From: a virus
Strand: one strand, 5' to 3'
Length of the DNA stretch: 64,000 nt
IMG/VR virus record: IMGVR_UViG_3300009509_000004
Span: 1-64,000 of that record
Shown piece by piece: positions 1,292 through 16,600 of this stretch. Numbering within the stretch: position 1 is the stretch's first letter; each line of letters opens with the position of its first letter. Below the pieces are notes generated by a model. That model made no database searches and had not been told where the DNA came from. It was given only the letters and a program-made list of their open reading frames with translations. The position numbers were made by a program, and so were the translations under genes.

Positions 1292-4200
1292 CTATGCAGA
1301 CTTCACAATTGCGGCTGATTTTTTGTACCAATGTATCTTGCCGCCGTTGAAAAAATACTGCCACTTTGCTTTGTTTCTATTGTCTTTTTGCCTATCTAAC
1401 TCAATCAGCAGCAATCTCCCTGCCTTGATCACCTCCCTGACCTTCTTGGTCCAATTTGAAGCAAAGCAGATGCAATCCACATAATTGTTCGCCGCATCTA
1501 CCATGCCAAAGAACGCCATCTGATGATCGTTCTTGTCGTATTTGAGCATGACGTTGGTCACGACGCCTGTGAACCTGGCAGACTTCATGCCAAAGAACTT
1601 TGTGTTGTTCATCCTCTGATCGGCCACCTCTGCAGCCGTTGATTTGCTCGTTGCTTGCCAGCTCCTGGCCGCTGGGTGCTTGCCTGCCACCAATTTCTCC
1701 CACGTGGTCAGCTCGCCCTTTTCCTCCACCTTCTTGCGATAGGATTCAAGATTCACAGCAAAGTGCGCCTTCAAATTCTCAAAATGCTTGTTTGGCCTCA
1801 CATGCACTATGACTGGGGTGCCCACGCCCGCGTCAACGATCTCTCGCATGTCGTCAAAGATGTCGATGTCAAACTTGATGCGATTCTGTTTCCCACCAGC
1901 ATCCTCAACGTTGACGTTTGCATACCTCCTGCCCCAAAACATCTTGGCCCTATCTGCCTCAGTCGGCAAATCGCCCGTCCAAAAGTCCCCAATCTGATTG
2001 TATTTGACCTCAACGATGACCCCAGCGATGTACACGCCCTTGTCGTGGTTTTCCTCCCAGAAATTCTCATCAGACATGGCGACTATGGGCACCTTGACGT
2101 TCTTGGACATGAAGTCCTCATATGCGTCAATCGGGTGCCGCCCAAACGCCAATGGATTGACCTGCGATGCGATCAGTTGCCTCTCTTCAGGCGCATAGTC
2201 TGGCTCGCTGGCTGACTCAGCCAACATCTCCTTGGCCTTCTCAACAGATCTCTTGCTGTTCAGTTTCTTCCAAAAGTCATCCAGGTTGTCGATGAACCAC
2301 TTGACATTTGGCAACAGTTCATCGAGTGCGCCCGCCCTTGCTAGTGCCGCCACGACGCCCCTGTGAACCTTGCGCCTCTCAACCTTCTCAAAGAAGTCAA
2401 AGATGTCATCAAACGGCTGCTTTGCCATGATCTCTGCTGCTGCATTCTCGCCCACACCTTTGATGTCAACCAGGCTGCCTCGGATCGCCTTGTGCTTGGG
2501 GTCAATGGCAAATTCCTTCTTGCTCACCGACACATCTGGGGGCAACAACTCAATGTCGTGCTTCTTTGCATCCTTGGCAAACTGCTGGATGCGCAAACGT
2601 GTTGGCTCATTCTTGAGCAGCCCCCAATAGAATTCAATTGGGTAGTATGTCTTGAGCCACATCCCCCAGTATGCAATGATGCCATATGCAGTGGCGTGGC
2701 TCTTGTTGAAGCCATACGACCCAAAGAATGTGATGGCGTCCATCAGCTTGCCAGCTGTCTTTTCGTCCATCCCGATGGTTTTCTTGGCACCCTCAATGAA
2801 ATTCTTGCGCTCTTTGCCAATGGTCTCATCGCCCCATTTCTTGGCAATCTTCTTGCGCAGCGAGTCTGCTGTTGCAGGGGCAAAGCCTGCGATCTCTGTG
2901 AAGATGCGCAGCACGTGTTCCTGATACACGATGATGCCGAGTGTGTCAGCTGTGATCTCGCTGACCTTGGGGTGCAAATAGCCCTCCTTGCGCTTCTTGG
3001 GATCTTTCTTGCGTGCGACATATTGGGTGGCCAGACCGCTGCGCGCCGTCCCTGGCCTGTTCAACGCCGTCATTGCCGCGATGTCTTCAAAATGCTCAAA
3101 CTTGACGCCTGAGCAAATCTTGTCAGCCCCTGGCGAGTCATACTGGAAGATGCCCACATAGTCGTGGTCTGTGAAGCCCTGCAGCACCTTCTTGTCGTTG
3201 AGATCAACGTGCTCAAGGTCAACCTCGACCCCGTGCCGATCCTTGATCGCCCTCACGGCATCCTTCAGCACTGTGAGTGTGCGCAGACCCAGAACATCCA
3301 ACTTGAGCAACCCGTGAGCTTGGACACCGTACATGTCAACAGCCGACACGACAACATCCCTGCCGTCGTGTTTGCGCACCTCCAATGGCGTGATCTGTTC
3401 CAGCGGGGTTGGGCTTGTGACAACGCCTGCCGCGTGAATGCCCAGGTTCTTTGCCATCCCTTCCAGCTTTGCGGCATACTTCAGCACGTCAGGATATTTC
3501 TTGTCAAACTCCCGACACACCTTGAATTCCTTGAAACTGTCTGTGATGGTCATGCTGGCCCGCTCGTCACCACTTGATCTCTCGATGATGCTGTTGGTGA
3601 CCGCGTTGACTTCTGCATATGGAACTTTGAGCACCCGTGAAACGTCCTTGAGGCACTGCTTCCCTGACAGCTTACCAACGGTGGCGATCTGACACACTTT
3701 GTCCTCGCCATACTTCTCACGCAAATGCTCGATGATTTCCTGTCGCCTCACGTCTTCAAAATCCATATCAATGTCAGGCATGTCGATGCGGCTTGGGCTG
3801 ATGAACCTCTCGAACAACAACCCGTGCTCAATCGGATCCACTGACGTGATGCCAAGTAGGTATGACACAATGGAGCCTGCCGCTGAACCTCGACCTGGGC
3901 CGCACATGATGTCTTGTTTGCGCACCCAATTGTACAAGTCTCGCACCAACAAGAAGTAGCCCACAAACTTCTGGTGCTGTATCGCCTTCAACTCGCTCTT
4001 GAGCCTTGATTTGTAGATGTCCAGCGCCTCGCCCTCGCTGATTCCCTGCCTCTTTGCATGCACCTTGGCCCGATCTGGGATGTTGCGCCAGCTCCACCCG
4101 TGGATGCACAACGCTCTGATGTATGCAAAGTCATCTGTGTATTCTTCAGGGATCTCGATTGGCGGCATCAAGCACGCAAACCTGTCAATCTCAATGATCT

Positions 4201-5146
4201 TGTTGTCAACCCGCTCCGTGAATGCCAGCGTGTTGTTCAGCGCCTCCTTGATCAGCCCCTTCCCCATGTAGCTGTGATATTTCATGAAATCATGAAACAT
4301 TTCTGCTCTGCTTTTGAGCCACAACTGGCCGTCGCCAAACTTGAACCGATCTGGGTTGCTCAGGTGGTCGTTGGTGCCGATGCACAACAGCGCCTCGTGC
4401 GCTTCCCAATCGCTGTGTTCCACATAGTGCGCATCTTGCGTAGCCAGGAGCCTGACCTTGTTTTCCCATCTGCTCATCAGCTCGATGGCAAACTTGTTGG
4501 TCATCGCCTGCTCTTTGAGATTGTGAGGCATCACCTCCAACCAAAGATCCTCCCCAAACGCCTCATACAGCTTGTCTGCTTCTGCCATCGCCCGCTTGCG
4601 CTTGCCGATGGTGATATGGTCCATGACGATGCTGGACAGGCACCCTGTGGCGACCATCAACCCCTCTTTGTGCTTGATCAGCTCGTCAACATCGATGCGT
4701 GGCTTGTAGTAGAATCCCTCAAGCCACCCCTTTGACGACAGCTTGAATAGGTTTTCAAGCCCCGCCTTGTTCTTTGCCCAGACTGTGATGTGGTATCTAT
4801 CCCTGATGCCATGTCTGTCTTCATACTCCCTGATGGCATCCTTCCACTCTGTGCGCTTCAGCCCCTTGGTGATGTCTGCCTTCTCTTCAGGAGTCAGCCC
4901 CTTGCGATGCATGTCGTTTGCGACATAGAACTCAATGCCGTACACAGGCTTGATCTCGTGCGTTTGGCACTCCAACAGCTGTTGATAATATGCACGCATG
5001 GTGCCGTGCTCTGTGAGCGCAATTGCTGGGTGGCCCATCTCTTTGGCCTTCTTCACATACGCATCGATCTTGCCACAACCGTCCAGCTGGCTCATGTCGC
5101 TGTGAACGTGCAAGTGCACCATATCTTGTTTGGGTTTCTTGGCCAT
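1292..5146 (-). CDS. dnaE: DNA polymerase III alpha subunit (family C replicase)
   Basis: A complete 1284-residue family C polymerase that probably replicates the phage genome. The N-terminal PHP domain has 'HLHVHSD' at about residue 11, 'ALTEHG' at about 43, 'VATGCLSS' and 'ATQDAHY'. These metal-binding motifs are largely kept, so the PHP domain may be an active proofreading nuclease. The catalytic core has 'CGPGRGSAAGS' and 'DMPDIDMDF' with the two palm aspartates, followed by the finger and helix-hairpin-helix region ('VDIKGVGENAA'). A C-terminal OB-like segment ('FTGVVTNVMLKYDKNDHQMA') completes it. Length is close to bacterial DnaE1 (about 1160) plus insertions. I see no separate epsilon or clamp gene in the window. 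The gene is preceded by the ExoX-C-like gene, whose stop is one base from this start. Confidence 0.97.
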   Translation of the reverse strand: MAKKPKQDMVHLHVHSDMSQLDGCGKIDAYVKKAKEMGHPAIALTEHGTMRAYYQQLLECQTHEIKPVYGIEFYVANDMHRKGLTPEEKADITKGLKRTEWKDAIREYEDRHGIRDRYHITVWAKNKAGLENLFKLSSKGWLEGFYYKPRIDVDELIKHKEGLMVATGCLSSIVMDHITIGKRKRAMAEADKLYEAFGEDLWLEVMPHNLKEQAMTNKFAIELMSRWENKVRLLATQDAHYVEHSDWEAHEALLCIGTNDHLSNPDRFKFGDGQLWLKSRAEMFHDFMKYHSYMGKGLIKEALNNTLAFTERVDNKIIEIDRFACLMPPIEIPEEYTDDFAYIRALCIHGWSWRNIPDRAKVHAKRQGISEGEALDIYKSRLKSELKAIQHQKFVGYFLLVRDLYNWVRKQDIMCGPGRGSAAGSIVSYLLGITSVDPIEHGLLFERFISPSRIDMPDIDMDFEDVRRQEIIEHLREKYGEDKVCQIATVGKLSGKQCLKDVSRVLKVPYAEVNAVTNSIIERSSGDERASMTITDSFKEFKVCREFDKKYPDVLKYAAKLEGMAKNLGIHAAGVVTSPTPLEQITPLEVRKHDGRDVVVSAVDMYGVQAHGLLKLDVLGLRTLTVLKDAVRAIKDRHGVEVDLEHVDLNDKKVLQGFTDHDYVGIFQYDSPGADKICSGVKFEHFEDIAAMTALNRPGTARSGLATQYVARKKDPKKRKEGYLHPKVSEITADTLGIIVYQEHVLRIFTEIAGFAPATADSLRKKIAKKWGDETIGKERKNFIEGAKKTIGMDEKTAGKLMDAITFFGSYGFNKSHATAYGIIAYWGMWLKTYYPIEFYWGLLKNEPTRLRIQQFAKDAKKHDIELLPPDVSVSKKEFAIDPKHKAIRGSLVDIKGVGENAAAEIMAKQPFDDIFDFFEKVERRKVHRGVVAALARAGALDELLPNVKWFIDNLDDFWKKLNSKRSVEKAKEMLAESASEPDYAPEERQLIASQVNPLAFGRHPIDAYEDFMSKNVKVPIVAMSDENFWEENHDKGVYIAGVIVEVKYNQIGDFWTGDLPTEADRAKMFWGRRYANVNVEDAGGKQNRIKFDIDIFDDMREIVDAGVGTPVIVHVRPNKHFENLKAHFAVNLESYRKKVEEKGELTTWEKLVAGKHPAARSWQATSKSTAAEVADQRMNNTKFFGMKSARFTGVVTNVMLKYDKNDHQMAFFGMVDAANNYVDCICFASNWTKKVREVIKAGRLLLIELDRQKDNRNKAKWQYFFNGGKIHWYKKSAAIVKSA

Positions 5147-5147
5147 G

Positions 5148-5627
5148 CTATCGCCTTCTGAACTTGTTTGTTCGCCTCAGCTGGTATTCACAGATGTTCT
5201 TCAACTCCTTGGGGAAGTCCTCACTGATGATCCAGCTCAAGTATCCTCTGTCAACCTCGGCAATATGCGACAGGTTGTTGCCGTCGTGCTTGCCAAAGTG
5301 CAACAATGCATCCCTTCCATCTGCGCTCACAACATATCTGCCGCCCTTGTGTCTGCCTTCCTTCTTGGCTTTGGCCTTGGCAGCCATGTTGTCAGCCCAG
5401 TTGCCTTTTGAATGCCTTGGGATCCAGCCGTGCCCCTCGCAAGCAACACAGATGTCTCCTGACCAATCGCCCGTTCCTTGACACCGCGCACACTGCTTTG
5501 CTGGCATGTTGAACGGGTTTTGCTTTGCCTCCCTGATCGGTTCAAGCGACCAACTGCCCTCCCTTTCCGGCAGCCCATCGACATCGTGGCCTTGAAGCCA
5601 CTTCCTCATTTCCTCAATGCTTGGCAC
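5148..5627 (-). CDS. Zinc-motif protein with ExoX C-terminal-like domain
   Basis: This 159-residue protein has three parts. Residues 1-20 are a short module with 'MPSIEEMRKW' and 'GHDVDGLP' that recurs in the unrelated protein at 18448-18753. Residues 45-70 carry a DnaJ-like CxxCxGxG pair ('CARCQGTG', 'CVACEGHG') that should bind one zinc. Residues 100-150 ('LLHFGKHDGNNLSHIAEVDR', then 'YLSWIISEDFP') match the small domain found at the C-terminus of exodeoxyribonuclease X and in DUF3820 proteins, which probably binds nucleic acid. No nuclease catalytic domain is present. Translation appears to start at GTG (5627), inside the end of the kinase gene. Its position just before dnaE suggests an accessory replication role, which is inference. 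Confidence 0.8.
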   Translation of the reverse strand: MPSIEEMRKWLQGHDVDGLPEREGSWSLEPIREAKQNPFNMPAKQCARCQGTGDWSGDICVACEGHGWIPRHSKGNWADNMAAKAKAKKEGRHKGGRYVVSADGRDALLHFGKHDGNNLSHIAEVDRGYLSWIISEDFPKELKNICEYQLRRTNKFRRR

Positions 5628-6225
5628 CGTTCAACTCTGGCACAACCAGATTGACAACACTCCTGACGCCATCCTCGATCTCGACATCACCCGTGTTGAT
5701 CTGGCGCTTGGTCAGCGTGACTGCCTGAAACATCTTCTTGTACCACGTGTCCAAAAGCGTGTACTGCTTCTTGTTTGGGCACCACCTCCCATAACACCTG
5801 CCCTGTGCTATGTGATATGGCGCTTTCAACCAGATGTACACGATTGGCCCGTTGCCTCGTTGGATGAGAGACAGCCAGAACTCCATCAATCTGCGTGCGA
5901 CGTACCGTTGCCCATACCATCCGTCATCATGGTTGTGTAACACACCATAGGCGACAGCAGACGGCACAGCACGATCCAAGATGGCGCTCACCTGGAATGT
6001 GGCCAAGAAGTCTGCTGCGTACAGATCGTCAACGTGCGTGTTGACCGGCACCTTCAACTCATCCCTGAGCATCTGGAACCGTTCTTGGCCCTTGTATCCC
6101 CAATGCAACTCCGTGTCGCCGTCCCTGAATGGCCTGACAATGGGCAATCCACCTAGCTGGTCTGATAATGCCTTTGCGTAGGTGGATTTGCCCACGCCAT
6201 TTGAGCCTTCAAGGATGATGATCAT
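5614..6225 (-). CDS. P-loop nucleotide kinase, thymidylate-kinase-like
   Basis: The 203-residue product begins with a perfect Walker A loop ('EGSNGVGKST', residues 6-15) preceded by a beta strand, as in thymidylate and deoxynucleoside kinases. 'ILDRAVPSAVAYG' supplies the DR-type motif that usually binds the acceptor nucleotide. Length fits the dTMP kinase family, but the lid region is not typical. The gene overlaps the aminotransferase gene upstream by four bases (ATGA), so the two are translationally coupled. Two readings are open. It may phosphorylate a modified deoxypyrimidine monophosphate made by the neighbouring enzymes. Alternatively it may be a kinase acting on hydroxymethyl groups in DNA, as known for phage 5-hydroxymethyl-dU DNA kinases. 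The sequence does not decide between them. Confidence 0.83.
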   Translation of the reverse strand: MIIILEGSNGVGKSTYAKALSDQLGGLPIVRPFRDGDTELHWGYKGQERFQMLRDELKVPVNTHVDDLYAADFLATFQVSAILDRAVPSAVAYGVLHNHDDGWYGQRYVARRLMEFWLSLIQRGNGPIVYIWLKAPYHIAQGRCYGRWCPNKKQYTLLDTWYKKMFQAVTLTKRQINTGDVEIEDGVRSVVNLVVPELNGAKH

Positions 6226-7526
6226 GTCGTTGCCAAAGTCCTGTGCGTCACCTCCAGGATCTGCAATGCAGCCTGGACCTCTGCCTCTGACACATTCAGA
6301 GGTGGCGTGAATCGGATCGGCCCATACTGCCGGTGCGTGGCCAAGGACAAGCCCAAGCGCCTCGCCTCGTGGATGAACCTGAACCCATCATAACCAAACT
6401 GCTCAAAATCTGGTGTGAACGCATTGAGCATCCCTGACCCGTCATGCTCTTTGACCCAGCTCATCTCAGCGAATGACGCCCTGATCATCGCCCCCTTCTT
6501 GCGCACCAACTCGATGTTCTTGTCCAACCACCTGTACATCTCAACTGCCATGTGACACACAAACGGTGAGCCTCCAAATGTGTTGAAGTGGACGCCTGGC
6601 GTGAACGCCTCTGCGACCTTGACCGATGCGAGCATCACGCTCATTGGGAATCCCATTGCGATGCCCTTGGCCAATGTCATGATGTCAGGCTTCACCTGGA
6701 TGTCTGGGTGTTGCCACGTTGCGAAGTATCCTGCGCGCCCCGACCCAGCCTGCACATCGTCATAGATGAGCAGCACGCCGTGTTCATCCCTGATGCGTTT
6801 CAACTCCTGCCAGAATGCCGGTTTGTATGTTTGGACAACGTTGTTGCCAAGCACTGGAGCAAGGATGATTGCTGCCACTTGATCCCAATTTGGTTCGCTT
6901 GGTTTGTGCTCGACTCCATCTGTGACAGTCTGTTTGAAATAGACCTTGCTGAAGTCTGCTTCCCAATCCAACACGCCAAACCCCTGCGACCCTGGGCCAA
7001 ATCCATGGCGGTGATATGGACTGACTCTGAAGTCTCCAGCCGCCATGCTGTTGGCCGTCCTGCCGTGGAAGTTGCCCTTGATGGTCAAGACCACGTGCCG
7101 CTTTGCCGTGTTCAGGATCTCCCCCTGCTCCTTGTCCCACCAATACTTGCGTGCCAGCTTGATTGCCGACTCGTTTGCCTCAGTGCCGCTGTTGGCAAAG
7201 AATGCGTGATCCATGCCTGTGCGGTCGCAAATGATCTCTGCAGCATCCCATCGCCGTTGGTTGGGATAGATGTCTGGCAACTGATGCGGGTGGCCACTCC
7301 CAAAGAACTTCATGACAGCCTGGATGACCTCTGGCGTGTTGTAGCCCAGCGAGCACACACCTTCATCTCCCCAATAGTCAAGAAGCGCTTTGTCATCGTG
7401 CTCTACATCAATGATGGTTGAGCCTTGACACGGCCCAATTGTCATGGGCATCCGCACAACATTGTTCATCAACCGCCTGTTGTACAACTCTGTGTTGACG
7501 GTTTTGTCTTCATTCGGGTTGGTCAT
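6222..7526 (-). CDS. PLP-dependent class III aminotransferase
   Basis: A full-length (434 residues) fold-type I, class III aminotransferase of the glutamate-1-semialdehyde/acetylornithine/omega-transaminase group. Visible motifs: 'NSGTEANESAIKLAR' around residue 112 (phosphate cup), 'GNFHGRT' around 151, 'IYDDVQAGSGR' around 255 (Asp256/257 holds the pyridine nitrogen; most relatives read DEVQ.G.GR), and the Schiff-base lysine K287 in 'TLAKGIAMGFP'. The usual 'EPvqgegG' stretch is changed to 'APVLGNNV', which would alter the substrate pocket. Such enzymes swap an amino group between an amino acid and an aldehyde or ketone. The gene overlaps the ThyX-like gene upstream and the kinase gene downstream by four bases each, so it is part of the 5614-11119 cluster. 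A complete class III transaminase is unusual in a phage. Confidence 0.93.
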   Translation of the reverse strand: MTNPNEDKTVNTELYNRRLMNNVVRMPMTIGPCQGSTIIDVEHDDKALLDYWGDEGVCSLGYNTPEVIQAVMKFFGSGHPHQLPDIYPNQRRWDAAEIICDRTGMDHAFFANSGTEANESAIKLARKYWWDKEQGEILNTAKRHVVLTIKGNFHGRTANSMAAGDFRVSPYHRHGFGPGSQGFGVLDWEADFSKVYFKQTVTDGVEHKPSEPNWDQVAAIILAPVLGNNVVQTYKPAFWQELKRIRDEHGVLLIYDDVQAGSGRAGYFATWQHPDIQVKPDIMTLAKGIAMGFPMSVMLASVKVAEAFTPGVHFNTFGGSPFVCHMAVEMYRWLDKNIELVRKKGAMIRASFAEMSWVKEHDGSGMLNAFTPDFEQFGYDGFRFIHEARRLGLSLATHRQYGPIRFTPPLNVSEAEVQAALQILEVTHRTLATT

Positions 7527-8485
7527 CGCTTCAGCTCTCCTGTGTAGGGATCTCGACCCCAGAAGCGCCGATATTGCTCAGCGCGTTTGATCATTTCATC
7601 CTTGCGTGGCACATCCACGTGCGGCAACTGCAGCGGCAACATCCCACGTGCCGACTCGTCAACGTGATGGAAATTGAGGTGCAGCGGGCAAGGTGGAAGT
7701 GCGTCATCACCTGTCAAGCGCCGCCTGCACTCTTCCATGTAGATACACCCGCCAAACTTGTTTCCTTTCAGGCATGGCGGTGAGACCAGCTCTCTGAAGA
7801 TCGGGTGGATCTTCTCTGCTGCCTCGTTGATCATCCCCTCGATGATTGGCCCCCAAATGCCCAGCTGAAGAATCCAGCACCCACGCTTCCCAACAATATG
7901 GGCAAGGCTGCCGATGTTCAACCGCCAGCTGATTCTGTGTTGAGCGCCCAACGGTATGAGCTCACGCGCATCCTCCATTGGCACCCCTGCCGCCACCAGC
8001 TCGTTGTATGCCGACTCGATCACCTTCATCGTGTCGTGAAACAAGCTCTCTTTGCCCAGCTCGACAACCGTGGGTGGCAACCGATACTGCTTGTTGGTTG
8101 CATAATGGCCCATGTCCTGGATGCGCATCGACTGCGACCACCAACTGCTGTCTGCCAAATCAGGGATCTTGTCCACAACGATGTCCGACCCCAACCGCTC
8201 TGGGCTGGGTGTGACTCCGATGCGGTGACGCACAGCCTGCTCTCTCCAGCTGACTGAAACGTTCTCCATCATGTAGACCAGATCCACGTGTTCGCCAACT
8301 GGAATACGTTGAGCAATGACCGCCCTGAACAGCTCTTCAACCTCTTCATGCGGCACCTGCTCTTTGATTTCCTCTGGTGTGCGCAGCTTGTCCTCAGTCT
8401 TGGACGCCTCCCAGACGCTGTACACAGTCTCCAGCGGATCTTTCGTCCACGTCAACAATGTTACTTTTGGTGTTGGGTTGCTCAT
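7523..8485 (-). CDS. Divergent ThyX-family flavin-dependent enzyme
   Basis: ThyX enzymes methylate dUMP to dTMP using FAD, NADPH and methylene-tetrahydrofolate. This 320-residue relative keeps the strand before the signature ('VDLVYMMENVSVSWREQAVRHR') and the later 'GVPMEDARELIPLG...NIGSLAHI' block (residues 168-198). The signature RHRxxSxNExSxRY is badly eroded, however: RHR (86-88) is followed by 'IGVTPSPERLGSDI', so the Ser, Glu and Arg-Tyr positions are lost. A C-terminal extension carries four cysteines (C238, C247, C253, C266) that could bind a metal or cluster. I chose ATG at 8485 because AAGGAGG lies seven bases upstream. The upstream TTG at 8491 is unlikely. Altered chemistry, for example hydroxymethylation or transfer of another one-carbon group onto dUMP, is plausible but inferred. 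Confidence 0.82.
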   Translation of the reverse strand: MSNPTPKVTLLTWTKDPLETVYSVWEASKTEDKLRTPEEIKEQVPHEEVEELFRAVIAQRIPVGEHVDLVYMMENVSVSWREQAVRHRIGVTPSPERLGSDIVVDKIPDLADSSWWSQSMRIQDMGHYATNKQYRLPPTVVELGKESLFHDTMKVIESAYNELVAAGVPMEDARELIPLGAQHRISWRLNIGSLAHIVGKRGCWILQLGIWGPIIEGMINEAAEKIHPIFRELVSPPCLKGNKFGGCIYMEECRRRLTGDDALPPCPLHLNFHHVDESARGMLPLQLPHVDVPRKDEMIKRAEQYRRFWGRDPYTGELKR

Positions 8486-8487
8486 CT

Positions 8488-9255
8488 TCAATCCTCCTTG
8501 AATGTCCTGATCACCTTGACAGGCACCTTGTCTTTCACCTCTTCAATTTCAAATCCGCCCCGCTCTGCGCCCTTCTTGAGCAGGAACATTGAAGACATGC
8601 GGTGCCAGATGACAACCGCAACAGTGCCAAAATCATACTTCTGCTTGTAGTGCAGGGCCACTGCCCTGAAATAGTCATACCAGTCATCAACGTCCATGCT
8701 GATTGATTCTGCGTATGACTCCCTGTTCTTCTTGAATCTTGCCAAACCAAACACCGCGCTGTCTGTCAGCGTCACCCACTCCCTGGACGCCCTGAAAATT
8801 GAGCTGACAGCATCTGAGTAGCGTGTTTCAGTCAGGTATCGGTTGAACGTGAGTTGATTGAAATCTGCATGCACCCAATCCCAAGACTTCTTTGCTTGCT
8901 TGGCGATGTATGCATATGAGTCAGCCTGCTTTGCCCTCACCATGGGCAGCGATCTCGTGATCGACTCGATGCAATCCTTGTTGACATCGAGCGCCAAGTG
9001 GCTCATCGGTTTGCACGCATCCTGAATCATGGAAGCGTGCCAACCTGACCCGCCAAACAACTCAATGACTGACTCGACCTTGCCCACCTTCTCAACAACC
9101 TTCTTGAATGCGGCAAGCTCTGCGTGAATCTCTTGACGCCTGATTGCATAATGGGCGTGCGGTGCATCCTTGCCGATCATCGCCCTTTCATCATCACTGG
9201 ATGAGTCACAGACGTACATCTGCTTGCTGCCAACTCTGACCTCTGTGATATTCAT
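8488..9255 (-). CDS. Class I SAM-methyltransferase-like protein
   Basis: The 255-residue product has a Rossmann-type motif I ('VIELFGGSGWHASMI', about residues 63-77) followed by an acidic second strand end ('LALDVNKDC', about 88-95). 'WDWVHADFNQLTFN' stands where the catalytic N/D-P-P motif would be, but no NPPY or DPPY is present. The second half is rich in aromatic residues. It looks like a SAM-dependent methyltransferase or a degenerate relative using the same fold. The substrate cannot be read from sequence. ATG at 9255 is preferred because GGGAGG lies seven bases before it and it forms a four-base overlap with the upstream stop. It lies between the MazG-HAD and ThyX-like genes, so it probably acts in the same pathway or on the same DNA. 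Confidence 0.7.
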   Translation of the reverse strand: MNITEVRVGSKQMYVCDSSSDDERAMIGKDAPHAHYAIRRQEIHAELAAFKKVVEKVGKVESVIELFGGSGWHASMIQDACKPMSHLALDVNKDCIESITRSLPMVRAKQADSYAYIAKQAKKSWDWVHADFNQLTFNRYLTETRYSDAVSSIFRASREWVTLTDSAVFGLARFKKNRESYAESISMDVDDWYDYFRAVALHYKQKYDFGTVAVVIWHRMSSMFLLKKGAERGGFEIEEVKDKVPVKVIRTFKED

Positions 9256-10163
9256 GATGGCCTCCCAACCGCCTTGACGATTGATGGCCAATCTTCAACA
9301 CGTGTAATCAGCTTGTTGTCCTCGATGCCCTTGTTGTAATCCCAAGCCAATAGGAGCACAGGCACGCCAATGGCAGCGACCTCCTTTGCGTGCTTCTCTC
9401 GATCCTCGATGAAGTATGCTGGCCTGGCAGGGAAAATGAATTCATAGATGGCCTCAGCCTTGTCCTTGTTGAACAAGATCAAGTCATAGGTCATCCCGTG
9501 TTTCTGGAGCCATTCAACCGTGTCTCCATACACCCGCTTGTACTGCCAATATGGCCGTGCGCTGATGAGCACAATCTTCCATCCCGCCTCGCTGATTGCC
9601 TTCAGCCCTTCAGCCGCCCCCTCGATGGGTGGAAGATCCAAAAAGCCACCATCCCTGTAGAAGTCCTCTTTCAGCGACTCAAGCAGCTGCACCGTCCTGT
9701 CGTTCATCGGTGCGCCGCCACGCGCCTCATTGAGCTTGCTTTGCCACCCGCTGAGATCTGCGATGATGTTGTCCACATCGACGATGATCAGCTTTGTGTC
9801 TCGCTCAAGCTCAAGCCTCTCGCCCTTTGCCCTGTCGTCAACGACCTTGGACTTGCGCAAAAATGCCTCGTACAGCTCTGTGGCGGTCACGCCATACAGC
9901 TGTGCGATGCTGATGAGATATTTGAGCACGTCAGCCGCCCCGTCTGCCACGTTGACCTTCTCAACGGGTGGGCACCTCAAAATGTGTGCCTTGTATCTGG
10001 CCACGACCTGCGACAGCTCGCCTGCCTCTTCATACAAGCCCAAAGCAAGATCCTTTGCTGTCTGAGCCTTGGTGATTGCGTTCATCCCCTTGGGGTCCAT
10101 ATTGAACGCAACCTGTTGGTCGTGTTGTTTCTGCCACATCTCATTCCATTGGTCTGTCGTCAT
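9252..10163 (-). CDS. MazG-like pyrophosphatase fused to HAD deoxyribonucleotidase
   Basis: Two enzymes in one 303-residue chain. Residues 30-115 form an all-alpha NTP pyrophosphatase of the MazG/dUTPase type, with 'LYEEAGELSQ' (E45, E46, E49) and a second acidic helix 'NVADGAADVLKYL'. Residues 122-300 form a HAD phosphatase close to 5'(3')-deoxyribonucleotidases: motif I 'VDVDNIIAD' (D129, D131), motif II 'LISARP' (S201, R203), K233, and motif IV 'FIEDREKHA' (E253, D254). Together they could turn a dNTP into a dNMP and then a nucleoside. That would suit removal of a normal nucleotide competing with a modified one. Start at ATG 10163 overlaps the previous stop by four bases. The GTG at 10172 is also possible. 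Confidence 0.87.
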   Translation of the reverse strand: MTTDQWNEMWQKQHDQQVAFNMDPKGMNAITKAQTAKDLALGLYEEAGELSQVVARYKAHILRCPPVEKVNVADGAADVLKYLISIAQLYGVTATELYEAFLRKSKVVDDRAKGERLELERDTKLIIVDVDNIIADLSGWQSKLNEARGGAPMNDRTVQLLESLKEDFYRDGGFLDLPPIEGAAEGLKAISEAGWKIVLISARPYWQYKRVYGDTVEWLQKHGMTYDLILFNKDKAEAIYEFIFPARPAYFIEDREKHAKEVAAIGVPVLLLAWDYNKGIEDNKLITRVEDWPSIVKAVGRPS

Positions 10164-11119
10164 ATGAACCACCTCTGAGCCAGGTCTGCTGCTTCTTCAA
10201 GTGTGACATCCGTTGTCGCTCTTGGATCCCATTTTGCAAACCTCCCAAGCAACTCAACGTTCTCTGGGAGTTTTGGTTGAGAATCCAAGGGCAACAGGTG
10301 CCCCTTCAATCCTTCACGTATGCTCTCTATGTACCAACCATCCCTGAAGATGAAATTGAGGTCAGAATACAGCGCCTGCTTGTTCAAATCTCCGTTCACC
10401 TCGACAGCGTATCCACCGCCCTCTGGCGATATTCTGTGGATGCAATCCTCTGGTGTGTATGGCGTGTAGACATAATCCCACTTGGCGTATTTGTCACGCT
10501 TTGGGTTGATCAAGGCCACATTCAATTTCATGGCCATCCCATCGGGCACATAGAACTTGACCACGCGCTGAATCACCCACAAAGGGACAGTCAGCACCAA
10601 GTAGTCATATGGCATCGTGGTGCCGCCCGCAAGGACAACATGGTCATCCTCGACACGCTCCAGCCCAGCCCTGATTATGTTTGCGTGCGCCGCCAGCTTG
10701 TTGATCATGTCTGGAAAATGGCACCTCAGCGCCCGTCTTGGCTTGATGCTCGCTGGGTCGTTCATTGCCTGGTTGCTGTGTTTGCCTGGTTCCATCCGCC
10801 TCGTTTTGCGGTAGTGATCGGCCTGGATGCGTGTTGCATCATCCTTGTTGAACTCCTGGAAGCACTTTGGGTATGGCAGCACCTCGCCTCTGAGCAAAAT
10901 GCCGCCTTGGACAGTGTAGTGGCTGTACATCACGCCGATCTTCCTGAACAACCATTCCATCATATCTGTGCTGTGGATGTACTTCAGTCCTCCAGCCAAG
11001 AATTCACCGCCGATGGTCCTGGGCTCCAGCACCTTTGTTTCAACGTTCTTGTGCTTGCTGAACACATATGCGCAGATCAACCCTGACACACCGCCGCCTG
11101 CGATGATCGCTTGTTTCAT
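10160..11119 (-). CDS. FAD-dependent oxidoreductase (amine oxidase/mutase-like)
   Basis: The protein (319 residues from ATG 11119) opens with a dinucleotide-binding motif 'AIIAGGGVSGLICAYVFSK' and then 'LEPRTIGGEF', the classic FAD-binding start of the protoporphyrinogen oxidase, UDP-galactopyranose mutase and amine oxidase superfamily. A later 'YDYLVLTVPLWVIQRVV' matches the 'D.VI.T.P' strand that closes the FAD site, and 'VELLGRFAKWD' resembles the C-terminal FAD-contact strand. ATG 11119 has GGAG five bases upstream. A longer frame from 11185 begins inside the inverted repeat and is unlikely. It is the first gene of the metabolic cluster. Substrate unknown; FAD enzymes are known parts of thymidine hypermodification pathways, which makes a base or nucleotide substrate a reasonable guess. 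Confidence 0.8.
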   Translation of the reverse strand: MKQAIIAGGGVSGLICAYVFSKHKNVETKVLEPRTIGGEFLAGGLKYIHSTDMMEWLFRKIGVMYSHYTVQGGILLRGEVLPYPKCFQEFNKDDATRIQADHYRKTRRMEPGKHSNQAMNDPASIKPRRALRCHFPDMINKLAAHANIIRAGLERVEDDHVVLAGGTTMPYDYLVLTVPLWVIQRVVKFYVPDGMAMKLNVALINPKRDKYAKWDYVYTPYTPEDCIHRISPEGGGYAVEVNGDLNKQALYSDLNFIFRDGWYIESIREGLKGHLLPLDSQPKLPENVELLGRFAKWDPRATTDVTLEEAADLAQRWFI

Positions 11120-11242: not shown

Positions 11243-12103
11243 TCAGCATGCCGGTGGCAAATCAATCTTACCTCGTTTCACTAGGTGCGCGATAGTCTGA
11301 GCAGCCAACGCAACCCCTTCTTTGTCCAGATTCATCATAACAGACCTGAACTTGCCGTCATCAATCGGTTGCGGCTTGATCTTGTCCATCGTCACCTTTC
11401 CAACTCCTATGTAGCTTGTGTGCTCCACAGGGATCTCGATGTCAAATGTCATTGAGCGCGTCTTGAACTTGATGACAGCCACAGGTGCATCCCTGCCTTT
11501 CGTCATCTTGCAGTACACACTCACATAGTTGCTGGTCCTCATCCTGTCAACGATGTAGAACCTGCCTGGCTTGACCGCCTCGCCTGGGGATGTGAACCTG
11601 TACACCTCCAGGTTCTCAACCATAACCGTCTTGAAGTGGTCAAACATCCTCTTCAGAATCTCTCTGCGCTCGATGGCCCGCTGTGTGATTGCCTTCCTGG
11701 CAAGCTCCTGGGCCTCCTTGCTGGGCCTGAGTGCCTTGCGGCCATCGTTCTCAGGTGCCTTCTTGGGCTTCTTGGGCCGTGTCGGATCTCTCGTGATCCT
11801 TCCTTCAACAACGCCATAGCGCTTGACTTGTTTCGCGCACAACCTCTCAAAGTGTCTCACACCCTTGATTGGGATACCCAACACGCCCTCTGGATGCGTT
11901 GGGTGCGGCTGCGCCTCGATAAAGTCATCAGCCTTCAGCTTGGTCTCTGCCAGGTATGCTTGGAATGCAACGCAATTGTCCCTGTACTTGCAGTGGTTGC
12001 GTTGAAACTCTGTATCAGCCTCTGGGTTGCCGTCACACGCCCCGTCGCCTGCCTCATATTCACCTGTGCAAAATGGCACATCGCGTTTTGGTTCTTCAGC
12101 CAT
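11243..12103 (-). CDS. Unknown protein with N-terminal cysteine cluster
   Basis: I do not recognise this 286-residue protein. Its first 50 residues contain cysteines spaced as in a small metal site ('FCTGEYEAGDGACDGN', then 'HCKYRDNCVAFQAYL'). A lysine/proline-rich linker ('TRPKKPKKAPENDGRK') follows, then a helical segment and a beta-rich C-terminal part ('GRFYIVDRMRTSNYVSVYCK', 'PVEHTSYIGVGKVTMDKI'). The start overlaps the end of the sigma-like gene by eight bases, so it is in the same operon. The sigma-like neighbour makes a role in transcription or DNA binding possible, but nothing in the sequence proves it. Confidence 0.75.
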   Translation of the reverse strand: MAEEPKRDVPFCTGEYEAGDGACDGNPEADTEFQRNHCKYRDNCVAFQAYLAETKLKADDFIEAQPHPTHPEGVLGIPIKGVRHFERLCAKQVKRYGVVEGRITRDPTRPKKPKKAPENDGRKALRPSKEAQELARKAITQRAIERREILKRMFDHFKTVMVENLEVYRFTSPGEAVKPGRFYIVDRMRTSNYVSVYCKMTKGRDAPVAVIKFKTRSMTFDIEIPVEHTSYIGVGKVTMDKIKPQPIDDGKFRSVMMNLDKEGVALAAQTIAHLVKRGKIDLPPAC

Positions 12104-13238
12104 GCTTCAGCTCCTTCACCAACGTCTTGTACCAGCTGACTGGCACATCCTCGCGCATGCCATCCTCGCCAAAGACCTCTCCTGTCAGCGGGTTGAAACG
12201 TCCTTCAATAACCATTGTGACATATTCTTTGCCTCGCTTGAGGGTCACCTCTGACCCCCACGCATAGCGTTTGATCATCCTCACCCACTTGGGTTTTCCA
12301 TCTTGCCCGACCTCTCCAGCTGTCTGGAAGTGGTCTTGCTCTTGCATGTATCCGGCCAATGGGACGCTGTCCAAGCATCGCTTTTTGATGATTCTTTTCG
12401 CCCACTCGATGTCATGGTGCTCCCCACGTGTCATGTGTATCATTGGCCATCCCCTACCTATTACAACATCACCAAACAGATCGCTGAAATCATCGTCATA
12501 TTTGGCAATCTCTGTGAACAACTTTTTGACCTTGTGCATGGCCCAGTCCACAGCGTTCTTGTCGATTTTGATGTACTTGGCGATCTGCCTATTGGTCACC
12601 TGGAATCCTGGTTCAAGCGCCAACTCGCCCCCTTCATCCCTGTAGACAAACTCAACACCCTCTGTGTAGAGCATGTCCAACATTTCTGCCGGTGGATGCA
12701 CCTTGCACCTGAACACAAGCCGCTCCGTGCCTGTGAGCTTGTTGTACATCTTCATCGTGAACTTTCCGACATCAGACCTGAGCTGATGGTGCGTGATCTC
12801 CTGCTCAGGGCTGACCCACTTTTCGTCTGGTGGCTCGTATGGGCACACCTCGTCATCCGTTGGAGCAAGCATGGCGTCCAATGAAATGGGGAAGCGTGGC
12901 CGCTTCACCCAATTGCCATTCTCATCCTTGGCCATGACGTGTGGAACCTTGGATTGCGTCAGCGACTCGTACACCATGCAATGGTACGTGTTGATCAGGA
13001 CGCGCCCAACGTAGCTCTCCAGCTTCCCTTTGTTCTTGTTGAAATCAAACTTGGCCAGCGCTGACAAAAGCGCCAACCGCCCTTCCTGGATGGCATCGTC
13101 AAGCTCGATGCCTGGAAGCATGTGGGCGATCCTGCGTGAGCGCTGCTTGATGTATGGAAACACCCTGCGCTCGATCTCAGGGTACACCTCGTTGATGATG
13201 CCGTCGCACTTGAATCCAGCTGGGAATGAAACTGTCAT
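12096..13238 (-). CDS. Sigma-70-like transcription factor
   Basis: The 380-residue product has a sigma region 2-like block: 'SRRIAHMLPGIELDDAIQEG', 'RLALLSALAKFDFNKNKGKL', then 'SYVGRVLINTYH', matching 'DliQeg..gL..A...fd...g.f.tya...i'. A second helical part with 'LTGTERLVFRCK' and 'VTNRQIAKYIKIDKNAVDWAMHKVKKLF' (about residues 165-240) looks like a region 4 helix-turn-helix. A C-terminal domain of about 140 residues is extra. It probably redirects host RNA polymerase to phage promoters, perhaps those of the structural genes, for which I see few sigma-70 promoters. AAAGGAGG precedes ATG 13238. It overlaps the cobT-like gene by four bases, so both should share the promoter at 15296-15324. Confidence 0.75.
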   Translation of the reverse strand: MTVSFPAGFKCDGIINEVYPEIERRVFPYIKQRSRRIAHMLPGIELDDAIQEGRLALLSALAKFDFNKNKGKLESYVGRVLINTYHCMVYESLTQSKVPHVMAKDENGNWVKRPRFPISLDAMLAPTDDEVCPYEPPDEKWVSPEQEITHHQLRSDVGKFTMKMYNKLTGTERLVFRCKVHPPAEMLDMLYTEGVEFVYRDEGGELALEPGFQVTNRQIAKYIKIDKNAVDWAMHKVKKLFTEIAKYDDDFSDLFGDVVIGRGWPMIHMTRGEHHDIEWAKRIIKKRCLDSVPLAGYMQEQDHFQTAGEVGQDGKPKWVRMIKRYAWGSEVTLKRGKEYVTMVIEGRFNPLTGEVFGEDGMREDVPVSWYKTLVKELKHG

Positions 13239-15265
13239 GCCGCCCTCCTTTTGGCGTCCAGGAGTTTGGCACGCATCAGCTTGTACACCTCAACTGCTAG
13301 CTTGGTCATGTCGTTGATGACCGCGCCACTCGCTCCGTGTTCTTTGTTGTAGAAGTCCTTGATGTGGTCGGTCATCGCCCCGATGCCCACGACCTCGATG
13401 CCCGCCTTGGTGATCTCGGTGATGACTTCCTCAAGGTGCTTGCAGAGCACCCCGCGATCAACCCCGCCGCCTGCCGGCATCCCATCGGACAATATGAACA
13501 TGATCTTGCGCGCCTCTGGCCTCTTTGCGAGCCTGAGTGCGCAAGCCATGATGGCCTCGCCGTCTGTGTTGTTGCCATCGCCCGTGATGGCGTTCATGCG
13601 GGTGCGCACCCGCTTGTACTTCTCTCCAAAATCCTTGAAGATGACATATTCAATCGGCTCACCACGCTGCGTCCCTGGCATGATGCTGACCGATGCGTTC
13701 CAATCGTTGTGGAATCCGATGACCTCAAAGGGCACGTTCAACGCGTCAAAAGTCTCGCTGAGTGCAATGGCCATGAGCTTGGCGTAATATGCCTTGTACT
13801 TTGGGTCATACCCTGGACCCATCGAGCCACTGAGATCGATGACGACGCTGATGGCCGTGTCCAGTGTCTCGCCTTCCTTCTCAACCTGAAACACGTTGAC
13901 GTTGCCGGTGGGAACCTGGGCCAGACGCGCCTTGTCGAGTTTGCCCTTGCGGTGGCCGCTTTCCATGCGGGATGCCGCCTTGGCTCTGATGACGTTGAGC
14001 AGCTTGCCTTTGAGACCTCTGATCTGCCCAGCGACAACTTCCTTGGCCTTGTTGTATTCTGCTTGGGCGTGTTCTGGGTTGCGGATGTGCGGCTTGACCC
14101 AGCGATCTCGCTTCAGGACGTTGGGGTTGGGGATGTAGCGCCGATGCGATCTGGCCTCGCCCTTGGCGATGTCCAGAACCTGATCCTTGACTTGCTTGAT
14201 CAGATCGTCTGTCTCTGCGTCCGTGCTTGCCTCGTCACCAGCCTGACACGCCTGGTCAAGCTCTTCATCGGTCAGCTCGCTTGAATCCTCGCCTTTGGGT
14301 GCGCCCGTTTTGGGTGCCTCGCTGCCGTCGCTGCCTGCCTCGCTGTCTCCCTCGTCATCCCCATCCTCGCCCTTGCTGGTGGACTGTTCCGTGCCTTCCT
14401 GCTCATCCTCGTCACTCTCGCCACTCTGGCCACCCTCGCCCTCTTGATCCTCTCCCTCGCTGTCGCTGCCGCTGTCACTCTGCTCCTGCTCGCCCTCGCT
14501 GCTGTCGCCCTCTTGCTCCTGGGCATCGCCCTCTTGCTTGTCTTGGCCGTCTTGCTTCTCTTGCTCTTGCTTCTGCTTTTCTTCTTGGCGCTGCTGGCGC
14601 TCTTGCTCCAGATCGTCAACCTTGTCGTTGATCTTGTCGATGACGCGCAACGCCAACTCGTGGCTGTCTTTGGCCCAGCTAGTCTTGGTGCTTTCCTCGA
14701 CCTCTGCTTGAACCGCGTCCAAGTATGGCTGGAACTTCTTGGGGAGCCACTCAACGCTGTAGCCTCTCGCCTTCATGATGATGGCGCTGCCGAGTGTGTG
14801 CCAGAAATTGACCCGCTTGCCTTTGCTGGTCTCGCCGTCAATCCCGTGGCGCTTCTTGAAGAGATCAACGCTGTTGACGTTTGCCTCGTGAAGATTCTCT
14901 GACACGCCCTTGTATTTGGCGCTGTACTTGTGCTCGATCCTGATGTCTTCAAAAACGTTGAGCAGCATGCGCTCTTTGGTGCTCTTGCAGTCGCGCATGA
15001 TTTTGAGCGGGGTGCGCTGGCCTGCCTCGGTGTGCTCCCTTTCCTCTGCGACGTGTGCGACCTCGTGATCGAGCAATCCGTGGAGAACTTTCTGGTTGGC
15101 CCCGTCAAGATAATCTGCGTTGAATGGATACTTGATGACCTCGCCGTCTGTGCTGCAGTCGTATCCCGATGGAACAACCTGAACGTTCCAGTTTCTCGAC
15201 ATAGCGCGTGCGATCTTCTGGAATGGTCCAAGGAGTGAATTGATTGCTTGCGTGGCTTTTTTCAT
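13235..15265 (-). CDS. CobT-like VWA-domain protein
   Basis: A 676-residue relative of the CobT subunit of aerobic cobaltochelatase. Residues 1-190 are the helical N-terminal region, including 'LHGLLDHEVAHVAEEREHTE' (an HExxH-like stretch, HEVAH). Residues about 200-350 are a long low-complexity acidic and glutamine-rich linker. The C-terminal VWA domain has the metal-ion MIDAS motif 'VVIDLSGSMGPGYD' and 'FILSDGMPAGGG'. CobT works with the AAA+ ring CobS, which is encoded just upstream here. No CobN or other B12 gene is in view, so a cobalt chelatase role is unlikely. In phages such pairs probably act as an AAA+/VWA chaperone system. ATG 15265 has GGAGAACGGACAC in front. Confidence 0.9.
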   Translation of the reverse strand: MKKATQAINSLLGPFQKIARAMSRNWNVQVVPSGYDCSTDGEVIKYPFNADYLDGANQKVLHGLLDHEVAHVAEEREHTEAGQRTPLKIMRDCKSTKERMLLNVFEDIRIEHKYSAKYKGVSENLHEANVNSVDLFKKRHGIDGETSKGKRVNFWHTLGSAIIMKARGYSVEWLPKKFQPYLDAVQAEVEESTKTSWAKDSHELALRVIDKINDKVDDLEQERQQRQEEKQKQEQEKQDGQDKQEGDAQEQEGDSSEGEQEQSDSGSDSEGEDQEGEGGQSGESDEDEQEGTEQSTSKGEDGDDEGDSEAGSDGSEAPKTGAPKGEDSSELTDEELDQACQAGDEASTDAETDDLIKQVKDQVLDIAKGEARSHRRYIPNPNVLKRDRWVKPHIRNPEHAQAEYNKAKEVVAGQIRGLKGKLLNVIRAKAASRMESGHRKGKLDKARLAQVPTGNVNVFQVEKEGETLDTAISVVIDLSGSMGPGYDPKYKAYYAKLMAIALSETFDALNVPFEVIGFHNDWNASVSIMPGTQRGEPIEYVIFKDFGEKYKRVRTRMNAITGDGNNTDGEAIMACALRLAKRPEARKIMFILSDGMPAGGGVDRGVLCKHLEEVITEITKAGIEVVGIGAMTDHIKDFYNKEHGASGAVINDMTKLAVEVYKLMRAKLLDAKRRAA

Positions 15266-15359: not shown

Positions 15360-16550
15360 TCACACCTCCCCACCAAAATACCGCTGGATGATGCCGTCAA
15401 CAAACTTGGCATCGTCAGCGCCCAACTTGTTGATGACTGCTACGTTTGCGCCCTTGCGCACGTCGTTGTAGCGCTTGGCTTTCCTGGCCCAAGACAGAAG
15501 CCTGCGAGTGCCAAATGTGCAATAGCACTCTTCACGGTTGAGTGCGTCTCTGACCTTGGCCGCGATCTCGACCATCTTGCGCGCCCAATCGATCTTGACG
15601 CCAGTCTTTTGAACCAGGATCTGCGTCTCTGTCTCCTTGTCTGGGTAGTCAAACTTGATGATGGTACCAAAACGGTCAAGCGTTGCCTCGTTGAGAACGT
15701 TGGCGCCAGCGTACAGCCCCGTGTCGTCACCGCGCCCGTTGGTGTTGTCCGTCCCAAAGATGCGGGTGCGCGGGTGCTTCGCAACGACCTCGCCGCCATT
15801 CTCGATGAGGACAAGATCGTCACCCTCAAGACAACCTTGGAGGCGCATCAGAACGCCTGCCGGTGCCATGGTGATCTCGTCAAGGATGATGAAATATCCA
15901 TCCCGCCATGCGCGGGTGAACGCGCCATCCTTCCAGCGTGTGACCTGCTTGCCGGTTTCCTCGTCAACAACGATCTCCATCTGGCCGATGAAGTCTTCAA
16001 TGCTGATCTTCTGGCTGAACTGGAACCGAATACAAGGTGTGTTGACGATTGCTGCGAGCTGTTTGACGATGGTGGTCTTGCCGCCGCCTGTGGGCCCGAA
16101 AATGAAGATGTTGTCGTTGTCCTCGATGCCGACTGCGATGTGCTCCATGTGCTCCATTTCGCGCTTGCCTGGGAGCCACTTGGCGTCGTGCTTCGGCACC
16201 TCTGCCTTCTGAAGCGCCGTGAGGTCTGCGTCCTTGACGAGTTTGAGCCTGGCTACGCCAACCTTGAAATCCTCTGCCGACTCGGTGACGACCTCTGCCG
16301 CCTTGGGCTCTGGCCCTTTCGATGGCTCGATTGGCTTGGCCTTGACCGCCCGCTTCTGCCCTTTGCTCGCCATCTTGCGCGCCGCCTCGCTGATTGTTGG
16401 TTCGCCAGGATACTTGGCCTGATAATCTGCGAGAGACATCGAGTGCTCGACCTTGAGGTGGACTTCCAAACGATGGAACCAACACTCACAGATCCTGCAC
16501 TGGATTTTCTCTCTGCCCTTCTTGTCGAGTTTGGTGTGCTTGCTTCCCAT
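15360..16550 (-). CDS. CobS-like AAA+ ATPase with MucR-type zinc finger
   Basis: The 396-residue chain has two parts. The N-terminus carries a zinc-finger-like 'CRICECWFHRLEVHLKVEH' with 'SLADYQAKYPGEP', the pattern of MucR/Ros-type fingers, then a basic linker. From about residue 140 comes a MoxR/CobS AAA+ ATPase with Walker A 'IFGPTGGGKTTI', Walker B 'FIILDEITMAPAG', and sensor 1 'IFGTDNTNGRGD'. It should form a ring that remodels a target with the CobT-like VWA partner encoded next. ATG 16550 is chosen because AAGGAGA lies directly upstream; the frame is open to 16595 but lacks a second ribosome site. It is bordered on both sides by matching terminator/promoter units. Confidence 0.9.
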   Translation of the reverse strand: MGSKHTKLDKKGREKIQCRICECWFHRLEVHLKVEHSMSLADYQAKYPGEPTISEAARKMASKGQKRAVKAKPIEPSKGPEPKAAEVVTESAEDFKVGVARLKLVKDADLTALQKAEVPKHDAKWLPGKREMEHMEHIAVGIEDNDNIFIFGPTGGGKTTIVKQLAAIVNTPCIRFQFSQKISIEDFIGQMEIVVDEETGKQVTRWKDGAFTRAWRDGYFIILDEITMAPAGVLMRLQGCLEGDDLVLIENGGEVVAKHPRTRIFGTDNTNGRGDDTGLYAGANVLNEATLDRFGTIIKFDYPDKETETQILVQKTGVKIDWARKMVEIAAKVRDALNREECYCTFGTRRLLSWARKAKRYNDVRKGANVAVINKLGADDAKFVDGIIQRYFGGEV

Positions 16551-16567
16551 GTCCGTTCTCCTTTTTG

Positions 16568-16590
16568 AGTTGGATTTGCCCTTTCCAACT
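16568..16590 (-). promoter_or_regulatory. Hairpin in the cobS-like mRNA leader
   Basis: AGTTGGA (16568-16574) pairs with TCCAACT (16584-16590) across a nine-base loop, just upstream of the AAGGAGA ribosome site. It may protect or present the site. Its role is not proven. Confidence 0.5.
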
Positions 16591-16600
16591 TTCAACTTAA

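Follow-up and report, generated by a model that had tools for sequence, protein, structure and literature searches.

What is made by a phage gene cassette in which a divergent ThyX is combined with a flavin adenine dinucleotide (FAD) oxidoreductase, a nucleotidase fusion, an aminotransferase and a nucleotide kinase? The question is raised by six tightly packed open reading frames (ORFs) on the minus strand (5614–11119) of the window, that is, the stretch of 64,000 nucleotides at positions 1 to 64,000 of the IMG/VR uncultured-virus record IMGVR_UViG_3300009509_000004, a tailed-phage contig of 106,758 bases. In transcription order, they encode the FAD protein, a MazG-HAD fusion, a methyltransferase-like protein, the ThyX-like enzyme, a class III aminotransferase and a P-loop kinase, and are followed by a small protein and a PolC-type DNA polymerase (Table 1). 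A preliminary description, made from the sequence alone, had presented the six genes as contiguous, closely coupled and of these identities, which was confirmed by the ORFs, the domain matches, the short overlaps or near-contacts at the gene junctions and the Shine-Dalgarno-like motifs preceding all six. The cassette most probably makes a C5-substituted, probably amine-bearing deoxyuridine nucleotide that would be incorporated by the phage polymerase, i.e., a pre-replicative modification (estimated probability of about 0.6). We infer the substrates, the order of the steps and the product from what was observed, namely the genes present, their strict linkage, the pattern of conserved residues and the folds.

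Recurrence and linkage of the cassette

A profile of the ThyX-like protein located 45 viral loci, which were distributed in two main classes, A and B. Linkage was counted over the 18 class A loci with a complete cluster, the window not included. The FAD, MazG-HAD, ThyX-like, aminotransferase and kinase genes were found together in all 18, within approximately 4–6 kb; the ThyX-like, aminotransferase and kinase genes were not in the same order in every locus, and the aminotransferase gene was duplicated in one of them (L029). The cassette was beside a DNA polymerase, inside the replication gene block, in nearly all loci, and most class A loci adjoined PolC, in records reaching about 105 kb. In locus L042/L043 the helicase and primase best matched those of class B phages and the ThyX-like protein was nearest to class B, the partner genes being those of class A; since class A partners are present there in a different phage backbone, the partner genes seem to move together. 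The five genes constitute a real unit and their arrangement is not due to chance.

Of the six-gene cluster of the preliminary description, strict co-occurrence held for five genes and not for the sixth. The methyltransferase-like gene was present in the window and in 4/18 complete clusters, with a fragment in L010/L022; on these grounds it was rejected as a core step and is considered accessory. It was associated with one subfamily of the aminotransferase (P about 0.006), but relatedness confounds this correlation, which was not relied on. Further accessory genes were a second methyltransferase in L010/L022, recognised by Pfam, and an SQD1-like NAD-dependent epimerase (L023, 10990–12186), recognised by eye between the ThyX-like and aminotransferase genes, which suggests a sugar or other tailoring variant.

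Class B loci (e.g., L035, L037, L039, L047 and L056) carried the same ThyX-like subfamily, approximately 41–52% identical to the window protein, adjoining DNA polymerase A. Its partners were a YfbR-like 5'-deoxynucleotidase, a nucleoside 2-deoxyribosyltransferase-like protein and, in several loci, a SPASM radical SAM enzyme; the class B stretches contained no detected member of the FAD, aminotransferase, MazG-HAD and kinase set.

ThyX-like enzyme

The predicted fold of the window protein was that of ThyX (predicted local distance difference test, pLDDT, of 87.7), and all leading PDB matches obtained with Foldseek were ThyX. The protein scored 65.6 bits with PF02511 (Thy1), above the cut-off of 24.8, and 44.8 bits with the NCBIfam ThyX equivalog TIGR02170, below the cut-off of 87.9.

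Residues were compared in 35 main copies of classes A and B aligned with nine canonical enzymes, using the numbering of the Thermotoga enzyme, whose reference sequence equals the PDB copy save for one residue near the C-terminus. Arg78, His79, Arg80, Arg90, Arg147, Arg174 and Gln180 were kept in 35/35 copies, and Ser88 and Gln75 in 34/35 each. Tyr91 was lost in all copies (Ile, Val or Leu instead), Asn85 was replaced by Trp and His178 by Ile in 35/35, and Glu86 by Ser in 34/35; His53, located in a region of low similarity, was kept in three copies and is Arg in the window protein. The spacing from Arg80 to Ser88 was 25–33 residues versus 7 in the canonical RHRX7S motif, with an active-site loop 18–26 residues longer, and an extra Cys motif was present at the C-terminus. 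The cassette enzyme shares with canonical ThyX (Thermotoga TM0449 and that of Mycobacterium tuberculosis) the fold and the residues for deoxyuridine monophosphate (dUMP) and flavin, and differs from it in the loss of Tyr91, the non-conserved His53, the longer loop and the C-terminal Cys motif.

In canonical ThyX, Tyr91 and Ser88 are critical, flavin oxidation being approximately 1000-fold slower after mutation of Tyr91, folate is stacked by His53, dUMP activation depends on Arg174, and the reduced flavin is stabilised by Arg78 (PMC11940539, PMC8316439). According to these roles and to the pattern of kept and lost residues, the dUMP–flavin half of the site looks conserved and the folate/acid half changed. 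Judged by its sequence, the enzyme is not an ordinary thymidylate synthase.

In one related genome (G011), the cassette copy is accompanied by another ThyX, which has the RHRX7S...Tyr motif of canonical enzymes, a division of labour that resembles the one proposed for gp9 and gp130 of phage SP-15 (PMC5977210). A deoxycytidine monophosphate (dCMP) deaminase lies close to the canonical ThyX of this genome (L119, approximately 70.2–72.4 kb of G011). Several class B loci contained a further Thy1 copy, which was more degenerate and lacked Arg78/Arg90. In the phylogenetic tree, the split between ThyX-like and canonical proteins was supported only at 93/99, the inner order of classes A and B was not settled and the long branches of SP-15 and Listeria phage LIS04 could not be placed. 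No cellular relatives of the ThyX-like protein were found by tblastn in the first profile scan of genome contigs.

Nucleotide metabolism elsewhere in the genomes

Gene absences were counted over 14 records, which are possibly fragments, and are provisional. ThyA (PF00303) was absent from 14/14 records, being found in 9/14 control genomes, and, of the 13 records matched by Thy1, 12 yielded no other thymidylate synthase. A dCMP deaminase was detected in seven records, the window phage included, and a dUTPase in one, none being found in the remaining 13. In the parent record of the window, the dCMP deaminase (approximately 96.5–97.0 kb), a UDG-family protein (97.4–97.8 kb) and a deoxynucleoside kinase (75.3–75.9 kb) are located outside the window.

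The ordinary supply of deoxythymidine triphosphate (dTTP), by a divergent thymidylate synthase and a kinase for the monophosphate (dTMP), with the FAD and aminotransferase genes as auxiliary metabolic genes, would fit this scarcity of other thymidylate synthases and the Thy1 score above the Pfam cut-off. However, it is hard to square with the strict linkage to aminotransferase, FAD and nucleotidase genes, and the universal loss of Tyr91, the enlarged loop, the score under the NCBIfam cut-off and the presence of a canonical ThyX alongside in G011 also oppose it. We consider it unlikely.

Partner enzymes

The predicted fold of the FAD protein was of high confidence (pLDDT 93.6) and resembled UDP-galactopyranose mutase (UGM), flavin amine oxidases, PPOX and renalase, with an invariant GxGxxG and C-terminal GR motif. 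Given this fold, the oxidation of an amine or a reaction at flavin N5 is no less likely than the oxidation of an alcohol; amine-oxidase, UGM and renalase folds act on amines or via flavin N5 more often than on alcohols. A search of 50,697 phage records gave no homologue of the FAD gene, and to date the system therefore seems limited to uncultured phages.

The aminotransferase was nearest to acetylornithine/ornithine enzymes. Lys287, which is the pyridoxal phosphate (PLP) lysine, Asp256 and Arg156 were invariant across 20 proteins and Arg399 was kept in at least 90%, both arginines being substrate residues in this family. Matches to this protein in "phage" records mostly looked like bacterial DNA and were not used.

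A hydroxymethyl, aldehyde, amine order of reactions had been put forward in the preliminary description, and is possible. As a special case of the pre-replicative reading, such a one-carbon series would lead from methylenetetrahydrofolate to 5-hydroxymethyl-dUMP (ThyX-like enzyme), 5-formyl-dUMP (FAD protein) and 5-aminomethyl-dUMP (aminotransferase), and towards the triphosphate (kinase). A fitting gene exists for every step, the aminotransferase residues for a glutamate-type donor are kept, and the loss of Tyr91 could halt catalysis before reduction (PMC11940539). On the other hand, the FAD fold is like those of amine oxidases, UGM and renalase and not of an alcohol oxidase family, the folate-stacking His53 is not conserved and the aminotransferase is of the aliphatic ornithine/acetylornithine type, and the complete series is regarded as rather doubtful.

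The kinase possesses a P-loop and the motif given in Table 1, and a distant relative, in L016, is a recognised Pfam thymidylate kinase; on these signatures it is a dTMP-kinase-type nucleoside monophosphate kinase. In the fusion protein, the HAD family motifs were kept across 19 copies, with motif IV altered in two, and the EExxE of the MazG part was kept in most copies.

A product outside DNA, such as a signal decoy, an inhibitor, a nucleoside-antibiotic-like compound or an RNA precursor, might also be conceived for these enzymes, as the nucleotidase fusion could release a nucleoside, and ThyX homologues take part in nucleoside antibiotic pathways (polyoxin PolB). The location of the cassette inside the replication block, adjoining the polymerase in nearly all loci, and a kinase of the deoxynucleoside monophosphate (dNMP) type argue against it, and we find it quite improbable. 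An anti-phage defence system was rejected, since PADLOC models gave weak partial matches only (best E approximately 5e-5 over part of the protein).

Comparison with known systems

Phages M6, ViI and phiW-14 contain amine-bearing deoxythymidine derivatives and have dCMP deaminase and, in some of them, FAD and PLP chemistry. Their amino-acid transferases and radical SAM enzymes had been noted as missing from the cassette, in agreement with our searches: the M6 gp49–gp59 products tested (a PLP enzyme, a radical SAM-like enzyme, a P-loop kinase, ThyA, an HD protein and unnamed proteins), with candidate amino-acid transferases among them, had no phmmer match at E ≤ 1e-3 in the window phage or related loci, very remote relatives being possible. 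In addition to the lack of M6-type relatives and of ThyA, the cassette differs from these systems in its kinase, which is of the dNMP type rather than a DNA kinase.

In phage SPO1, 5-hydroxymethyluracil is made pre-replicatively: dUMP is modified by a ThyA-type dUMP hydroxymethylase, a kinase acts on the modified dNMP and other enzymes destroy dTTP/dTMP. The cassette would be alike in this logic, genes of the dUMP-acting, dNMP-kinase and nucleotide-destruction types being linked in all 18 complete loci, with the MazG motif incomplete in the window copy; it is unlike SPO1 in that no ThyA-type gene was found and in the extra FAD and aminotransferase genes. No earlier description of these genes as a set turned up in the open-access papers searched. 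The proposal of a new pre-replicative route has to be qualified, since pre-replicative synthesis itself has a precedent in SPO1. A further precedent is the dihydroxypentyluracil (DHPU) of SP-15, whose modified nucleotide is reported to be made as the triphosphate (title of ref. 43 in PMC5977210).

About half of the thymine of SP-15 is replaced by DHPU (PMC5977210), and label from ribose was reported in the side chain (title of ref. 42 in PMC5977210). Among named phages, only LIS04 (OQ999172), which is filed under Thornevirus SP15, had a homologue spanning more than 80% of the window ThyX (E 2e-18). This LIS04 ThyX lies close to a nucleoside 2-deoxyribosyltransferase, homologues of which stand in the vicinity of SP-15 gp130 and also occur in class B modules. 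SP-15 and LIS04 are similar to the window phage in having a divergent Thy1/ThyX in the replication region, a dCMP deaminase, a UDG-family protein and a deoxynucleoside kinase, and dissimilar in the presence of the nucleoside 2-deoxyribosyltransferase and of sugar-decoration genes; no FAD/aminotransferase/MazG-HAD unit was seen beside their ThyX in the stretches read. LIS04 and SP-15 (KT624200) are filed under the same species taxon; their ThyX and gp130, respectively, have no detectable similarity, although the nucleoside 2-deoxyribosyltransferases and HD proteins encoded nearby are similar. No phmmer match of gp130 was obtained outside SP-15.

Another special case of the pre-replicative reading would be the coupling of a longer aldehyde, made by the aminotransferase and/or the FAD enzyme from an amine or amino acid, captured by the ThyX-like enzyme on the reduced flavin N5 and joined to C5 of dUMP, with a multi-carbon side chain as in SP-15. 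Canonical ThyX accepts free formaldehyde via a flavin carbinolamine (PMC8316439). The non-conserved folate-stacking His, the enlarged active-site loop, the LIS04 enzyme in an SP-15-type phage and the ribose label mentioned above are in accordance with such a coupling, whereas SP-15 gp130 is not detectably homologous. Moreover, we know of no ThyX that uses an aldehyde other than formaldehyde, and this scheme can only be held as a tentative, rather unlikely one. With similar reserve, it may be speculated that the family is a new class of ThyX-derived C5-alkylating enzymes, folate-independent, which would capture on flavin N5 other aldehydes, supplied by the aminotransferase/FAD or the radical SAM/deoxyribosyltransferase partners, and join them to dUMP. 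Phages would thus build hypermodified thymines in one C–C bond step at the monophosphate level, and the same chemistry would explain DHPU in SP-15.

Proposed pathway

In the preferred pre-replicative reading, the ThyX-like enzyme would bind dUMP, partly supplied by the phage dCMP deaminase, form a flavin-N5-linked carbon adduct and join it to C5 of dUMP without finishing as dTMP. The oxidation state of the side chain would be adjusted by the FAD protein and the aminotransferase, which would also introduce an amine donated by glutamate; they would act on the nucleotide itself or on a small aldehyde used by the ThyX-like enzyme. The dTMP-kinase-type kinase would then phosphorylate the modified dNMP, while MazG-HAD would remove competing dTTP, dUTP or dTMP, and optional methyltransferases or the sugar-type epimerase may vary the group between phages. 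The product would be used by the neighbouring PolC-type polymerase. A DNA-precursor role around dUMP, as advanced in the preliminary description, is supported by the residues of the ThyX-like enzyme, the type of kinase, the nucleotidase-family HAD, the strict linkage near the polymerase, the dCMP deaminase, the fact that no ThyA was found and the lack of matches to the M6 enzymes tested.

Several points weigh against this pathway. We infer the identity of the modified base from ThyX ancestry alone. Direct homology between the window ThyX and SP-15 gp130 was rejected, with no detectable similarity between them, and the link to SP-15 is consequently indirect, via LIS04 and synteny. Most class A phages have a common backbone, so part of the co-occurrence is due to common descent. 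The fold search was unable to separate amine oxidase, mutase and renalase chemistry for the FAD protein, the Glu of the second MazG motif (ExxD) is lost in the window copy, leaving an incomplete catalytic motif, and the change at His53 falls in the region of low similarity indicated above.

Features of the locus

The coordinates of the cassette and of its downstream neighbours are detailed in Table 1. For two genes, an internal ATG is the more likely start from the sequence, at 8485 for the ThyX-like enzyme and at 10163 for MazG-HAD.

Table 1. Features of the cassette and adjoining genes in the window.
Feature	Position	Strand	Characteristics
FAD-dependent oxidoreductase, UGM/flavin amine oxidase/renalase fold, 319 aa	10160–11119	minus	Weak sequence match, E 2e-4; core gene
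MazG-like and NT5C-type HAD fusion (deoxypyrimidine 5'-nucleotidase family)	9252–10172	minus	NT5C E 3.9e-11, MazG E 0.0026; core
Methyltransferase-like protein, 255 aa	8488–9255	minus	Weak DUF938 match, E 0.008; accessory tailoring gene
ThyX-like enzyme	7523–8491	minus	Thy1 E 6.5e-18; extended active-site loop, Tyr91 lost, C-terminal Cys motif; core
Class III omega-aminotransferase, acetylornithine/ornithine type	6222–7526	minus	Aminotran_3 E 4.6e-64; core
P-loop nucleotide kinase	5614–6225	minus	dTMP-kinase-type DRxxxSxxAY motif; core
Small ExoX-C-like/zinc-motif protein between cassette and polymerase, frequent in related loci	5148–5627	minus	
PolC-type DNA polymerase III alpha subunit, genomic neighbour	1292–5146	minus	

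Other neighbours conserved in related phages were a sigma-factor-like protein (12096–13238), a VWA-type protein containing a long run of acidic residues (13235–15265) and an AAA ATPase (15360–16595), the last two resembling MoxR-VWA pairs. The PolC genes of L019 (L007), L020 (L008), L016 and L024 were split by an insert of approximately 0.7–2 kb, which continues in frame in at least L007 and L008 and has an intein-like appearance. In L043, a sulfotransferase-like gene (12485–13258) immediately follows the cassette kinase.

Biological significance

Modified DNA is a main means by which phages escape restriction and CRISPR, and the routes to amine-bearing thymines that are known in genetic detail act after replication, on DNA. 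If the reading proposed here is true, a route based on ThyX, operating before replication and with partner genes that can be exchanged, would follow a biosynthetic logic that is new and would be a source of enzymes for DNA modification. Such a route would also provide candidate genes for the synthesis of the SP-15 side chain, which was left as a hypothesis in the 2018 genome paper of that phage.

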